A DNA stretch of 64,000 nucleotides from NCBI RefSeq assembly GCF_013408525.1, contig NZ_JACBZM010000001.1, positions 3,720,001-3,784,000 of the forward strand. The letters are read 5' to 3'. Positions 7,439 to 12,049 of the stretch are shown one piece after another. The translations under genes were made by a program, and so were the position numbers. This stretch comes from Nocardioides aromaticivorans. Its GTDB lineage: Bacteria; Actinomycetota; Actinomycetes; Propionibacteriales; Nocardioidaceae. The notes under the pieces were generated by a model. It was not told where the DNA came from. It was given only the letters and a program-made list of their open reading frames with translations, and did not search any database. Numbering within the stretch: the stretch's first letter is position 1; every line of letters starts with the position of its first letter.

Positions 7439-8281
7439 ATGCAGAGCAACAACCCGGTGTTCCGGCGCTCGGAGGAGTTCAACCGGAGCGGTGCAGGCGC
7501 GTACCAGGGGTTCGGCCAGCAGCCGGGCTACGGTCAGCCCGGCCAGCCCTACCCGGGCTACGGCCGGCCCGCCCCGACCCCCACCACGGGAACGGGCCGG
7601 ATGACCATCGACTCGGTCGTCCAGTCGACGTCGATCACGATCGGCATCACCGTCCTCGCCGCCGCGGTCACGTGGCTCGTGACGCCGGCGATCAGCCCCG
7701 AGACGGGCATCCCGTCCAGCCTGCTGGCGGCCTCGGTCATCGGTAGCGGCGCGGCCTTCATCCTGTCGCTGGTCAACTCGTTCAAGCGGATCATCAGCCC
7801 CGGCCTCGTCATGGCCTTCGCGGTCGCCGAGGGCGTCGCGCTCGGCGCGCTCAGCGAGCTGTTCAACGCGGTCTACGGCGGCGGCATCGTCGTCCAGGCA
7901 GTGATCGGGACGTTCGCGGCCTTCGGTGGCACGCTGGCGGCGTACAAGTTCTTCGACATCCAGGTCGGCAACAAGTTCCGCACCTTCGTCATCGCGGCCA
8001 TGTTCGGCATGGTGGCCCTGAGCCTCTTCGAGGTCGTGCTCGGCCTCTTCGGCAGCAACCTGGGCCTCTTCGAGGACGGCGCGCTCGGCCTGGTCTTCGC
8101 CATCGCCGGTCTCGTGCTCGGTGTGTTCATGCTGATCCTCGACTTCGACTTCGTCGAGCAGGGTGTCCGCAACGGCCTGCCGGAGCGCGAGTCGTGGCGG
8201 GCCTCGTTCGGCCTGCTCGTCAGCCTGGTCTGGATCTACACCAACCTGCTCCGGATCCTCGCGATCCTCCAGCAGGACTGA
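7439..8281 (+). CDS. Bax inhibitor-1/YccA family membrane protein
   Basis: A 280-aa integral membrane protein. Residues 1-55 form a soluble Gly/Pro/Tyr/Gln-rich tail (GFGQQPGYGQPGQPYPGYG); seven hydrophobic segments follow between about 65 and 278, and the protein ends in the BI-1 family acidic region (DFDFVEQG). The family includes Ca2+-leak channels and FtsH-interacting membrane proteins; the bacterial role is not established. The low-complexity N-terminal tail is common in actinobacterial homologues. It is monocistronic, with its own promoter and a strong terminator. Confidence 0.88.
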   Translation: MQSNNPVFRRSEEFNRSGAGAYQGFGQQPGYGQPGQPYPGYGRPAPTPTTGTGRMTIDSVVQSTSITIGITVLAAAVTWLVTPAISPETGIPSSLLAASVIGSGAAFILSLVNSFKRIISPGLVMAFAVAEGVALGALSELFNAVYGGGIVVQAVIGTFAAFGGTLAAYKFFDIQVGNKFRTFVIAAMFGMVALSLFEVVLGLFGSNLGLFEDGALGLVFAIAGLVLGVFMLILDFDFVEQGVRNGLPERESWRASFGLLVSLVWIYTNLLRILAILQQD

Positions 8282-8341: not shown

Positions 8342-8400
8342 GCGGTTCACCTACCGAATTTGTCGCCAAGGGGATCAGGGCGCGACGAATTCGGTAGGTG
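8342..8400. repeat. Left boundary palindrome of the element
   Basis: Arm CACCTACCGAATTTGTCGC (8348-8366) pairs at 18 of 19 positions with 8382-8400 around a 15-nt loop. It starts 8 nt after the BI-1 terminator stem. Confidence 0.85.
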
Positions 8401-8417
8401 CGTCGTACCACCCGACC

Positions 8418-9449
8418 TCACGCGGAGGTCCGTCGAAGCCACCGCTGCCTGTCCTCCTCGTCCAGCGCGCGCCGTGCCTGGACGGACGAGGTGTCGACCC
8501 ACCAGTGCGGCTGGTCCAGTGTCCAGCCCTGCCCGGCGTGGCGCCGCCGGGCGCGCGCGTACGCCGCATCGAGCCGGCGCTCGAAGGAGCCGAGGTCCCG
8601 CAGATCGGTGGACAGCATCGTGACGAGCTCGAAGCCGAGTTCCCGACACAGCTCCTCCGTCTCGAGATCGCGGCGTCGTACCGTCCGTCGCTCATGGATC
8701 AGTCCGTCGTACTGCCCGACGACGCCTGCCTCCGCGTCGAACAGGTCGGGCGTCAGGAGATGGCTGCCGGCCGGGTCGAAGATGGGTGCGTTGCACAGCA
8801 GTGTGGCGACGGGGTGGCGCTGCCGCCAGCGCATCAGCATGGTGACCTCCATCGGCGACCAGACGTTCTCGTCAGCCACTTCGAGCGCAGTGTTGAGGCG
8901 TCGAGTGTGCGGGCGACCCTTGATCCGCGCGGCGTAGTCGCGGAGCTCGTCGAGACTGGCCAGGTCGTCTGCCATGGCCATGCAGATGACCTGGACGGTT
9001 TCCTCCATGGATCGCGCGCGTAGAGCCGCGACGCAGATCGATCGCTCGGGACGGGTGATCGGAAGACCGTCAACGCGCATGATGTCGCCGTCGAAGAGCC
9101 AGTCCCGGCACAGCTGGACTCCCGGACGGCGTGCGAGGTGCACCGAGTCGCCGATGGCGACCGGCACCGGGAGGGGCTCGCCGCCTGCTGTGCACCCGGG
9201 GAACCATCGCGCTCCTTGCCAGTGCAAGGCGGCCCAGCCCGTGGCCCCGCTGCCCTCGGGGGCACTCGCGACCGCCTCCACGATCCGTTGTAGGACCGAG
9301 CCTTGACCGACATGTGCAGGCACGAAGAGGCCGCAGGACGACCCACGCCAACGCGGCCCGCGTGCCTGGCCCGGAGTCGGACCGTTGCGCCCCGACGGGT
9401 CGACGGGCACCGGGACGACAATGTCCGGCCGGGTGATGTTCAGCTCCAT
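8418..9449 (-). CDS. AbiEi-like N terminus plus DUF559/PD-(D/E)XK-like protein
   Basis: A 343-aa protein with two apparent parts. Residues 20-110 (GPTPGQARGPRW, then GLFVPAHV and GWAALHWQGA) resemble the winged-helix and linker region of AbiEi-type antitoxins. Residues 195-280 resemble DUF559/Vsr-like nucleases: SPMEVTMLM (E201), PDLFDAE (D238), VVGQYDG, then RRRDLETEELCRELGFELV. The usual active-site Glu before YDG is Gln246, so nuclease activity is doubtful. ATG 9449 has GAGG 8 nt upstream; an in-frame GTG at 9521 lies inside the boundary repeat and is less likely. Function unknown. Confidence 0.65.
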   Translation of the reverse strand: MELNITRPDIVVPVPVDPSGRNGPTPGQARGPRWRGSSCGLFVPAHVGQGSVLQRIVEAVASAPEGSGATGWAALHWQGARWFPGCTAGGEPLPVPVAIGDSVHLARRPGVQLCRDWLFDGDIMRVDGLPITRPERSICVAALRARSMEETVQVICMAMADDLASLDELRDYAARIKGRPHTRRLNTALEVADENVWSPMEVTMLMRWRQRHPVATLLCNAPIFDPAGSHLLTPDLFDAEAGVVGQYDGLIHERRTVRRRDLETEELCRELGFELVTMLSTDLRDLGSFERRLDAAYARARRRHAGQGWTLDQPHWWVDTSSVQARRALDEEDRQRWLRRTSA

Positions 9450-9512
9450 CGGCCCAGCCTCGGCCAGATCGCCGGCCTCGGGCGGTCGTCCTCCACAGGC
9501 CTGCCGGGAAGT

Positions 9513-9577
9513 GCGGTTCACCTACCGAATTCGCTCTCGACAGCGCCGAAGCGCGACAAATTCGGTAGGTGAACCGC
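9513..9577. repeat. Right boundary palindrome of the element
   Basis: Perfect 19-bp inverted repeat: 9513-9531 (GCGGTTCACCTACCGAATT) with 9559-9577, around a 27-nt loop. The outer 25 bases match the left boundary exactly in inverse orientation. Confidence 0.88.
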
Positions 9578-9603: not shown

Positions 9604-10626
9604 TCAGTCGGCGACGGGTGCGCCCTCGTGCTCGGCCGGGGCCTCGCCGGGGACGTGCTGGCGGCTGCGGCGGTGGCGCAGCTCGACCCAGAGGCCGCGG
9701 ACGCCGGCGCGGCGGCCGCCGATCTCGGTGCCGTCGAGCTCGGTGCCCGGCTCGTTGACGGCCTGGACGGCTGCGCGGGTGATCGGCAGGACGCCCTCGC
9801 CGCGGTAGGCCTCGAGGGCGACCTCCTCGTCGGGGACCTGCTCGAGAGCGGCGAGCACCGACGGGACCAGGACGCCGGCGAGGGCCTTGTAACCCTCGGC
9901 GGACGGGTGGAACTGGTCGGGGCCGAACAGCAGCGCCGGGGCTGCGGCGAACTCGGGACCCAGCACGTCGCCGAGCGACACCGTCCGGCCGCCCTCCTCG
10001 ATGACCGCGATCGTCTGGGCCGCCGCGAGGCGGCGCGACCAGGCGCGCGCCACCTGGCGCAGCGGCGGCGCGATCGGCTGGACCGTGCCCAGGTCCGGGC
10101 AGGTGCCGACGACCACGCTGGCGCCGGCGCCCATCAGCCGGCGCACCCCCTCGGAGAGGTAGCGCACCGAGTGCGAGGGCCGCATCGTGTGGGTGACGTC
10201 GTTGCCGCCGATGAGGATCACGGCGGCGTCGGGCTCGATCGGCAGCGCGCGGCCGACCTGCGCGGCGAGGTCGGAGGACTTGGCGCCCACGACGCAGAAC
10301 TCCCGCAGGTAGACACGGCGGTTCGCGTGCTCGGCCACGGCGGAGGCGATCAGCGCGCCCGGCGTCTCCTCGACCCGGTCGACGCCGTAGCCCGCGGCGC
10401 TGGAGTCGCCCAGCAGGGCGATCCGGATGGCGGGACCGGGGCGGCCGCGGCCGTACCAGCCGGTCGCGTCCGGGGGCGGCTCCTCGCGCGCGGGACCGAT
10501 CGTCTTGCGCGCCAGCCGGGCCTCCGCGGTGAGTACGCCGTAGAGGCCGGCGCCCAGCGCGGAGAGCCCGCCGCCGCCGTACAACGCGGCGGAGGCGAGC
10601 TTGCGGGCTGCGGACGCCTTGCTCAC
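9604..10626 (-). CDS. SGNH/GDSL-family esterase
   Basis: A 340-aa SGNH hydrolase. Block I is ALLGDSSAAGYG with nucleophile S75, block III is IGGNDVTH (about 139-146) and block V is GPDQFHPSAEGY, supplying the catalytic Asp and His. A hydrophobic segment at about 10-33 without a clear cleavage site suggests an N-terminal membrane anchor or signal. The substrate is unknown; actinobacterial relatives next to cystathionine beta-synthase are annotated as lipases/esterases. The GTG 10626 start is supported by a -10 TAGAGT 7 nt upstream (leaderless). It is divergent from the CBS gene by 37 bp. Confidence 0.85.
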   Translation of the reverse strand: MSKASAARKLASAALYGGGGLSALGAGLYGVLTAEARLARKTIGPAREEPPPDATGWYGRGRPGPAIRIALLGDSSAAGYGVDRVEETPGALIASAVAEHANRRVYLREFCVVGAKSSDLAAQVGRALPIEPDAAVILIGGNDVTHTMRPSHSVRYLSEGVRRLMGAGASVVVGTCPDLGTVQPIAPPLRQVARAWSRRLAAAQTIAVIEEGGRTVSLGDVLGPEFAAAPALLFGPDQFHPSAEGYKALAGVLVPSVLAALEQVPDEEVALEAYRGEGVLPITRAAVQAVNEPGTELDGTEIGGRRAGVRGLWVELRHRRSRQHVPGEAPAEHEGAPVAD

Positions 10627-10633
10627 GGCGGCA

Positions 10634-10657
10634 ACTCTACGGATCCACCGATACGGT
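10634..10657. promoter_or_regulatory. Compact face-to-face leaderless promoters
   Basis: Minus-strand -10 TAGAGT (10639-10634) lies 7 nt before GTG 10626, and plus-strand -10 TACGGT (10652-10657) lies 6 nt before ATG 10664. The two hexamers are 12 bp apart, so each expected -35 falls on or beyond the other promoter's -10. The two genes cannot easily be initiated at the same moment. Confidence 0.55.
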
Positions 10658-10663
10658 GATGGC

Positions 10664-12049
10664 ATGGAGTACGTCGAATCCCTGCTGGAGCTGATCGGCA
10701 ACACCCCGCTGGTCCGGCTCAACCGTTCCCTCGACCTGCCCGCTGACGGACCGTTGGTGCTGGCCAAGGTGGAGTACCTCAACCCCGGCGGTTCGGTGAA
10801 GGACCGGATCGCGACCCGCATGATCGAGGCTGCCGAGGAGTCCGGCGCCCTCAAGCCCGGCGGCACGATCGTCGAGCCGACGTCCGGCAACACCGGAGTC
10901 GGCCTCGCGATGGTGGCGCAGCAGAAGGGCTACCACTGCATCTTCGTGTGCCCCGACAAGGTGAGCGAGGACAAGCGCAACGTCCTCAAGGCGTACGGCG
11001 CCGAGGTGGTCGTCTGCCCGACCGCCGTCCCGCCCGAGCACCCCGACTCCTACTACAACGTCAGCGACCGCCTCGCGGCGCAGCCGGGCGCGTGGAAGCC
11101 CGACCAGTACTCCAACCCGCACAACCCGCGCTCCCACTACGAGGAGACCGGGCCCGAGCTCTGGCGCCAGACCGAGGGCCGGATCACCCACTTCGTCGCG
11201 GGCGTCGGCACCGGCGGCACCATCTCCGGCATCGGCCGCTACCTCAAGGAGCAGAACAAGGACGTCCAGGTCGTCGGCGCCGACCCGGCCGGCTCGGTCT
11301 ACTCCGGCGGCACCGGCCGCCCGTACCTCGTCGAGGGCGTCGGTGAGGACTTCTGGCCCGAGACCTACGACCGCGAGGTCGCCGACCGGATCATCGAGGT
11401 CTCCGACGCCGACTCGTTCGCATTCACCCGCCGCCTCGCCCGCGAGGAGGCGCTGCTCGTCGGCGGATCGTCCGGCATGGCCGCCTTCGCCGCGCGCCAG
11501 CTGGCGCAGGAGCTCGCCGACGCGGGCCAGAGGGACGCCGTGATCGTCGTGCTGCTGCCCGACTCGGGCCGCGGCTACCTCAGCAAGGTCTTCAACGACG
11601 ACTGGCTGGCGCAGTACGGCTTCAGCACCGGCCAGCCGCAGCCCGCCCGCACGATCGGCGAGGTCCTCCGCAGCAAGACCGCCGGCCTGCCGGCCCTCGT
11701 GCACACGCACCCCAACGAGACGATCGCCGAGGCCGTCGCCATCCTGCAGGAGTACGGCGTCTCGCAGATGCCCGTCGTGCGCGCCGAGCCGCCGGTCGTG
11801 GCGGCCGAGGTGGCGGGCTCGGTCTCCGAGCGGGCCCTGCTCGACGCGCTCTTCACCGGCAAGGCCCGGCTCAACGACTCGGTCGAGCAGCACATGTCGC
11901 CGGCCCTGCCGACGATCGGCTCGACCGAGGACGCGACGGCGGCGGTCCCGCTGCTGGAGTCGGCGGACGCCGTCCTGGTGCACGAGGACGGCAAGCCGGT
12001 CGGGGTGCTCACGCGCCACGACCTGCTGAACTTCCTCGCCAAGGGCTGA
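10664..12049 (+). CDS. cbs: Cystathionine beta-synthase with CBS domain pair
   Basis: A 461-aa PLP enzyme condensing serine and homocysteine to cystathionine (reverse transsulfuration). Catalytic Lys46 is in NPGGSVKDRIA, the substrate loop is EPTSGNTGVGLA, and the phosphate-binding loop is GVGTGGTISGIG. The C-terminal third (about 340-461) holds two CBS motifs (ALVHTHPNETIAEAV..., LPTIGSTEDATAAV...), the regulatory nucleotide-binding module. Unlike human CBS there is no haem-binding N terminus. Leaderless ATG start. The downstream GNAT gene begins 4 bp after the stop. Confidence 0.92.
   Translation: MEYVESLLELIGNTPLVRLNRSLDLPADGPLVLAKVEYLNPGGSVKDRIATRMIEAAEESGALKPGGTIVEPTSGNTGVGLAMVAQQKGYHCIFVCPDKVSEDKRNVLKAYGAEVVVCPTAVPPEHPDSYYNVSDRLAAQPGAWKPDQYSNPHNPRSHYEETGPELWRQTEGRITHFVAGVGTGGTISGIGRYLKEQNKDVQVVGADPAGSVYSGGTGRPYLVEGVGEDFWPETYDREVADRIIEVSDADSFAFTRRLAREEALLVGGSSGMAAFAARQLAQELADAGQRDAVIVVLLPDSGRGYLSKVFNDDWLAQYGFSTGQPQPARTIGEVLRSKTAGLPALVHTHPNETIAEAVAILQEYGVSQMPVVRAEPPVVAAEVAGSVSERALLDALFTGKARLNDSVEQHMSPALPTIGSTEDATAAVPLLESADAVLVHEDGKPVGVLTRHDLLNFLAKG

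Follow-up and report, generated by a model that had tools for sequence, protein, structure and literature searches.

Positions 8,342 to 9,577 of a 64,000-nucleotide stretch of the Nocardioides aromaticivorans genome (the whole stretch is called the window here) hold an element in which a single intact gene lies between two 65-bp sites (Table 1). The outermost 25 nt of the element (8342-8366 and 9553-9577) form a 100% complementary inverted repeat, and each end holds a second inverted copy, 8348-8366/8382-8400 on the left (95% match) and 9513-9531/9559-9577 on the right (100% match). This confirms the architecture given in an original prediction, made from the sequence of the window, of perfect 25-bp terminal inverted repeats (TIRs) around one gene with a further inverted copy within each end. 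Each end of the element is a palindromic site whose arms, of about 20-25 nt, enclose a spacer unrelated in sequence. A scan of the whole window for inverted pairs (arms of at least 18 nt, seed 14, separation up to 3 kb) finds 17, of which three are 100% complementary: the 25-nt pair of the element, the 19-nt arms of the right site itself, and an 18-nt pair elsewhere. The 25-nt pair is the longest perfect one in the window; pairs with longer arms are only 77-85% matched. The longest open reading frame (ORF) of the gene encodes 367 aa and starts at 9521, but relatives support an ATG at 9449.

Table 1. Features of the element and its neighbours, in window coordinates
Feature	Position	Strand	Description
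Whole element	8342..9577	none	Orthologous intergenic space empty in G168; occupied in G136, G252, G184, G127, G240, and G138
Left dyad site	8342..8406	none	Two inverted half-sites with variable spacer; outer end of GCGGTTCA type, inner end of TGCGTCG type
Gene	8418..9449	-	343-aa protein; predicted AbiEi-like part (residues 8-193) and Vsr/EDxHD-like nuclease domain (residues 196-303)
Right dyad site	9513..9577	none	Both ends of GCGGTTCA type; the longest ORF of the gene begins within the site
Left neighbour	7439..8281	+	Bax-inhibitor-1-like host gene, outside the element
Right neighbour	9604..10893	-	GDSL lipase/acylhydrolase host gene, outside the element

The window protein on its own matches no Pfam or NCBIfam family, and a sequence search against solved structures returns nothing useful for it; it is 97% identical to a Nocardioides aromaticivorans protein. 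One PADLOC AbiEi model fits 28 of 33 family members, DUF559 and MTES_1575 each match 3 of the 33 weakly, and relatives of the window protein match none of the Pfam transposase families. The predicted structure of the window protein combines an AbiEi-like part with a domain resembling Vsr and the EDxHD homing endonucleases, the AbiEi fold and a Vsr-like fold both being found in the model. The AbiEi/DUF559-like character originally proposed for the cargo thus depends on the relatives and on the predicted structure. Residues E201, D235, H252, and D261 are invariant in 33/33 and 76/76 sequences, follow the order E-D-H-D along the sequence, and are candidate catalytic residues of the type found in the homing endonuclease I-Bth0305I. 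The gene is under purifying selection, and no homologues were found in phage or plasmid records.

Homologues (E <= 1e-20) are present in 63 of 116 relatives, 60 of 71 within the genus and three of 45 outside it, and most are enclosed by paired sites of their own. In set 1 (92 loci read), a long inverted match between the upstream and downstream flanks (score of at least 17) is found at 74 of the 89 loci that have both 400-bp flanks, compared with 1/86 when stretches 960-1400 bp out are used as a control. In set 2, the best 80 of 118 loci in named genomes (nearly all Nocardioides, Pimelobacter, or Marmoricola), 67 of 72 loci pass and 1/65 in the control; loci lacking both flanks were dropped (3/92 and 8/80). 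A control with mismatched loci gives 3/300, two of them with very high scores (139 and 57.5). The two sets share 20 identical site pairs, and the 143 passing loci hold 123 distinct sites. Elsewhere in the class, outside the genus, 11 of 18 loci pass, a count that has no control of its own. Boundary repeats of this kind therefore do flank homologues of the same gene, as the original prediction would have it; their sequences vary between enzymes and agree within one locus.

Paralogues within one genome are 39-48% identical and have different sites. The genome of the window (G000) encodes two, L013 (C1:1396364-1397437), with its own TAGTCCCTGACGAAAAGCACC sites, of which 8 solo copies were read, and L012 (C1:200577-201641), with only a 14-nt inverted flank match, GTCCGGTACGACGG. 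The same genome has three further matches to PF18741 (MTES_1575), at C1:1208067, C1:91060, and C1:3132388; the flanks of one such gene (L397) hold no paired sites (score 12.5). Distant MTES_1575-type PF18741 genes of other Actinomycetota (L392, L400, and L402) have paired inverted flanks with scores of 20-28.5, a hint of a wider system, and in the wider PF18741 family 3 of 15 readable loci score at least 17 (16 loci looked at of 30, without control), which is a weak signal.

Sites of the window type are also dispersed through the 5.26-Mb genome. The arm pattern gives 23 matches and its reversed control none, and a looser pattern gives 80 against 17; read out, these matches comprise 24 solo sites without a gene and the two flanking sites. 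The resulting 26 copies are a lower bound, as more degenerate copies may be missed. Both arms fit the first pattern in 11 copies, with a spacing of 42 in 11/11, and mean identity across the 26 copies is 0.82 in the arms and 0.32 in the loop. Two end types occur, GCGGTTCA and CCACGCA, and some single sites carry both. Solo sites lie between convergent genes in 12 of 24 cases, and in 19 of 24 a gene 3' end is within 35 bp (as called by a crude ORF caller). The stems at the sites are stable by prediction; an unpaired GTAG or CGTC tag at the foot of the hairpin is absent from the window family, in which GTAG falls inside the arm. An asymmetric arm position (C left, T right) gives a direction to 14 of the sites, and 12 of these run the same way along the contig (p 0.013), an orientation bias. 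Because solo sites occur without the gene, the element is not just a 1.24-kb cassette: the cassette is real, but it is an incomplete account, and a lone cassette moved by its own TIRs is ruled out by the 24 of 26 sites that have no gene. That the repeat occurs mostly without the gene, which had been offered as a ground for rejecting the original prediction, is true as a count, yet it is what a REPIN-like system predicts.

Across the genus, sites follow the gene. Of 215 same-genus genomes, 9 contain the exact window arm. Among the 30 genomes that best match the window locus, the gene is present in that of the window itself and in the six relatives listed as occupied in Table 1, is shortened in G206, and has left half a site in G014; the other 21 have no element, including the closest relative found (G168), and in two of these 21 (G237 and G051) the right neighbour was not found. 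The nine genomes with the window arm are exactly the nine with the element or a remnant of it (Fisher p 7e-8, uncorrected for descent), and the empty sites in close relatives that the original prediction called for thus exist. G035 and G002 carry homologues (62-63% identity, with related arms) at other places in their genomes, and the window locus is empty in both. The 21-nt arm of a second family (up to one mismatch) occurs in 14 of 215 genomes, eight with at least three matches per strand and six with one to three one-mismatch matches; in seven of the eight (G000, G002, G062, G063, G190, G231, and G160) a homologous gene lies between two second-family copies. A model of the TAGTCC sites has no match in the window itself and matches 173 of 196 same-genus genomes, counting both strands and up to 26 matches listed per genome. 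At least 20 matches are found in 37 of 60 gene-bearing genomes vs 0 of 11 gene-less ones (71 genomes with gene calls; Mann-Whitney p 3e-5), and six gene-bearing genomes have none. Protein identity and arm similarity are correlated over 34 loci (Mantel r 0.27, a value reached in 0 of 2000 permutations; r 0.19 among proteins less than 60% identical).

Several loci bear on movement. In nine rows, representing seven distinct loci, the arms around the gene have the nested order '++-' gene '+--', and the half-units of nested loci and arrays are mostly 31-32 nt apart. The outer halves rejoin to a site of 63-64 nt in five of the seven and to a shorter one in L089 (54) and L262 (42); because they rejoin to one site, the cassettes appear to have entered the spacers of older sites. 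These nested loci are the one line of sequence evidence that bears on homing-type cutting and copying into a cognate site, with which they are consistent. Arrays of up to five tandem half-sites, about 31-32 nt apart, are found on one side of the gene in L067/L281, L305, and L317, with inverted half-sites on the other side. In G190, sites on five contigs share much of the loop while their flanks differ, which points to recent spread of sites in that genome.

The flanks of 12 solo sites were searched in ten relatives; ten could be aligned, and the overall picture is ambiguous. The place of L018 is empty in five relatives and has other sequence in a sixth (G034). That of L014 is empty in three; two others have a different palindrome there, and one has the same type. 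That of L024 is empty or nearly so in three, while two relatives carry a similar site, two a different palindrome, and two longer inserts; the remaining aligned sites are mixed across relatives. As far as alignments can be read, with junctions not readable to the base, the pattern is one of sites being gained and lost, or turned over, at intergenic places that stay fixed. The place of L023 is occupied by CCGTGGGC...GCCCACGG palindromes in G127 (L224) and G240 (L228) and by a similar one in G042 (L226); gene ends of this sort may thus act as hotspots for palindromic repeats. By eye, no target duplication is readable at the window element or in the G190, G000, and G063 copies.

The geometry of the sites is nearly fixed. 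Among 84 distinct TAGTC...GACTA sites, with core lengths of 50-74 nt permitted, the core is 59 nt in 69 and 58 nt in 12. Over 64 of these sites, from different families, the arms covary (93.4% of cells paired vs 65.6% in shuffles; covariation score 0.667 vs 0.167), with 42 G-U cells among 1472; pairs altered on both sides number 16, no different from shuffles. Arms are conserved and loops are not, with identities of 1.000 vs 0.378 in G063 (seven copies) and 0.982 vs 0.416 in the second family of G000 (ten copies); these copies were chosen by arm pattern, so arm identity, though not loop diversity, is partly by choice. Within the window family (26 copies), the inner 15 arm positions have 327 Watson-Crick pairs where 326.1 are expected if the arms are independent (p 0.45), in a test of one family whose copies were found through one arm; pairing as such is therefore not selected in the inner arm. 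The outermost five positions, which include the two end types, are coupled (110 vs 89.3, p 0.0005). A single protein binding both half-sites would likewise produce covariation between families. AbiEi is reported to bind a pair of inverted 23-bp repeats separated by 3 bp, and Rv2827c to have paired 23-bp repeats with 13 bp between them (PMC7319586); the latter spacing, 23+13+23, gives 59, like the core of the sites. I-Bth0305I is reported to act as a dimer on a target of nearly 60 bp (PMC3943268). Given the uncoupled inner arms, the repeat spacing of AbiEi and Rv2827c, and this long dimer target, the site is more readily seen as a duplex dyad than as a hairpin, its two half-sites having the spacing of a published operator of the AbiEi family, with a putative cut in the spacer.

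The gene product would then be a sequence-specific nuclease that joins an AbiEi-type operator-binding part to a Vsr/EDxHD domain of homing-endonuclease type. Its target would be the 59-67 bp dyad, in which two inverted half-sites, each of about 23 bp and bound by one protomer, stand at a fixed distance, and the dimer would cut in the free-sequence spacer. Because there is a full site at each end of the gene and cassettes lie inside the spacers of older sites, this cut is the likely entry point for new copies, whether of the whole cassette or of the site alone. Solo sites would make up a REPIN-like population, dependent on the cognate gene and altering in sequence as that gene does; binding, dimerization, the spacer cut, movement, and the way in which a site is copied to a new place are inferred on this basis. 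We judge it probable that a nuclease recognizes its own sites, cuts them, and spreads them, in the manner of REPIN-RAYT but through an unrelated enzyme. The broader proposition, that Actinomycetes carry a class of selfish systems parallel and unrelated to REPIN-RAYT, in which AbiEi-homing-nuclease fusions cut their own 59-67 bp dyads and thereby spread sites and gene, with several enzyme-site pairs per genome and sites turning over with the enzyme, has about an even chance of being right. The original prediction is partly supported overall; its suggestion of a selfish unit with RAYT/REP-like logic and a different enzyme fares well, backed by the paired sites at homologues, the empty orthologous places, and the dispersed sites that track their cognate gene.

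A number of observations weigh against the nuclease reading. Its support is genome sequence and a predicted model; the fold match comes from the model, and the invariant residues are related to the EDxHD motif by their order. The 17-point threshold was fixed after a first look at set 1, set 2 overlaps set 1, and no pair was detected at 15/89 and 5/72 loci. Co-occurrence of gene and sites is partly confounded by descent; 6 of the 11 gene-less genomes still show 2-14 TAGTCC-model matches, and G035 holds the second family without its gene. The element has been kept at the window locus through several species (0.71-0.73 protein identity to four orthologues), and movement is therefore rare. At that locus neither a target duplication nor a junction exact to the base can be defined, and the neighbouring gene of the nearest relative is 86% identical. 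Some orthologous places are taken, in relatives, by a different palindrome, which may reflect a hotspot or site conversion instead of transposition.

The sites could instead act as folded hairpins, recognized, cleaved, and moved as single-stranded DNA by this enzyme in a RAYT-like or cruciform mechanism. Strong stem covariation between families fits this proposal, and REPINs, as reported, likewise pair inverted arms with a highly diverse spacer (PMC8049555). It is nevertheless quite unlikely: coupling in the window family is confined to the outer five positions, the near-fixed length and the few G-U cells suit a duplex dimer site, and the protein model resembles Vsr/EDxHD-type nucleases, not HUH enzymes. 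The RNA/DNA-hairpin recognition raised by the original prediction is disfavoured for similar reasons, namely inner-arm changes that are uncompensated within the family and a modelled AbiEi DNA-operator-binding fold joined to the nuclease domain. Bidirectional terminators or structured RNAs that lie beside the gene by chance would account for the position at gene 3' ends and for the stable predicted stems, but they are highly improbable, since flanking sites match each other and the type of gene, inner arms lack covariation inside the window family, and no T-run follows the window sites. A known small RNA was also considered and rejected, the three Rfam matches around the window element being far below gathering scores and none of them on the sites.

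Other alternatives concern the role of the protein. A domesticated function in chromosome maintenance, in which the protein binds gene-end sites (to nick, resolve, or organize DNA, for example) and selection keeps the sites with little selfish movement, agrees with one locus held across species under purifying selection, with the convergent-gene and 3'-end positions of solo sites, and with alike arms and diverged loops, with the caveat on copy choice given above. We consider it unlikely, because many relatives, among them the closest, lack both site and gene, and nested insertions and same-genome paralogues with different sites look parasitic. AbiEi proteins are reported to autoregulate through paired 23-bp inverted repeats (PMC7319586) and one site lies just upstream of the gene start, so the protein might be a repressor with solo sites as regulatory operators; with a second site behind the gene, solo sites mostly at gene 3' ends, and the nested cassettes and conserved nuclease-type centre left unexplained, a regulon is very unlikely. 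An anti-phage or toxin-antitoxin module of AbiE type with protective flanking repeats is hardly tenable. The PADLOC AbiEi profile speaks for it, but no gene for an AbiEii (DUF1814) toxin adjoins the window gene, at this one locus, where the Bax-inhibitor and GDSL neighbours belong to other families, and dispersed sites would be without a role.

The nuclease reading leaves the system with partial likenesses to several known ones. Miniature inverted-repeat transposable elements and insertion sequences with TIRs share inverted ends and short gene-less copies; here, in contrast, each end is a complete dyad, and there is no known transposase family and no visible target duplication. CGTC-tagged repetitive extragenic palindromic sequences (REPs; Di Nocera 2013) are reported without a dedicated transposase (PMC3733652) and are similar in being short palindromic repeats with no adjoining RAYT (REP-associated tyrosine transposase) gene; membership of the present sites in that superfamily is without support, and the text consulted on them never names Actinobact- or Nocardioides. 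I-Bth0305I resembles the modelled enzyme in the fold of its nuclease domain and, as reported, in the dimer on a target of about 60 bp (PMC3943268), whereas here DNA binding falls to an AbiEi-like part, and the target lies on both sides of the gene as well as scattered over unrelated intergenic places. Unlike the type IV antitoxins AbiEi and Rv2827c, the present protein has its AbiEi-like part fused to a predicted nuclease domain and has genome-wide sites at gene ends. No prior description of such a system was found in the literature searched (titles and abstract openings, with most subscription journals outside its scope), nor did that literature connect an enzyme of this type with repeats. 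Neither the enzyme architecture nor the pairing of a gene with its own dispersed target fits a kind that was found.

The closest likeness is to REPIN-RAYT. RAYTs are HUH enzymes; the enzyme modelled here has instead an AbiEi fold and a Vsr/EDxHD nuclease domain. The HUH/Y1 transposase family PF01797 is found in 0 of 39 genomes, the window's own included, and in 5 of 14 control genomes, and on this search a RAYT or IS200 enzyme encoded in the same genome is rejected as the mobilizer. A REPIN-RAYT-like working is supported by genome evidence, while membership in REPIN-RAYT fails on the enzyme. If the reading is true, an operator binder of antitoxin type and a domain of homing-endonuclease type, both known parts, have been joined into an apparent transposition or homing system, and the REPIN-RAYT way of life has been invented twice, independently; nature would then supply many enzyme-site pairs whose targets are long and differ from one another, and the question of who mobilizes RAYT-less palindromic repeats would become directly testable. 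REPINs are described as REP doublets in inverted orientation whose spacer is highly diverse, and the RAYTs to which they are tied as single-copy and passed on vertically (PMC8049555); REP and TnpA-REP are described as having co-evolved (PMC8266576). Inverted conserved arms with a diverse spacer, extragenic dispersal, a vertically kept gene flanked by repeats, and co-evolution of enzyme and repeat are common to both systems; the present one differs in its near-fixed dyad of about 59-67 bp, in a window family without the unpaired GTAG/CGTC tag, and in cassettes nested in the spacers of older sites.
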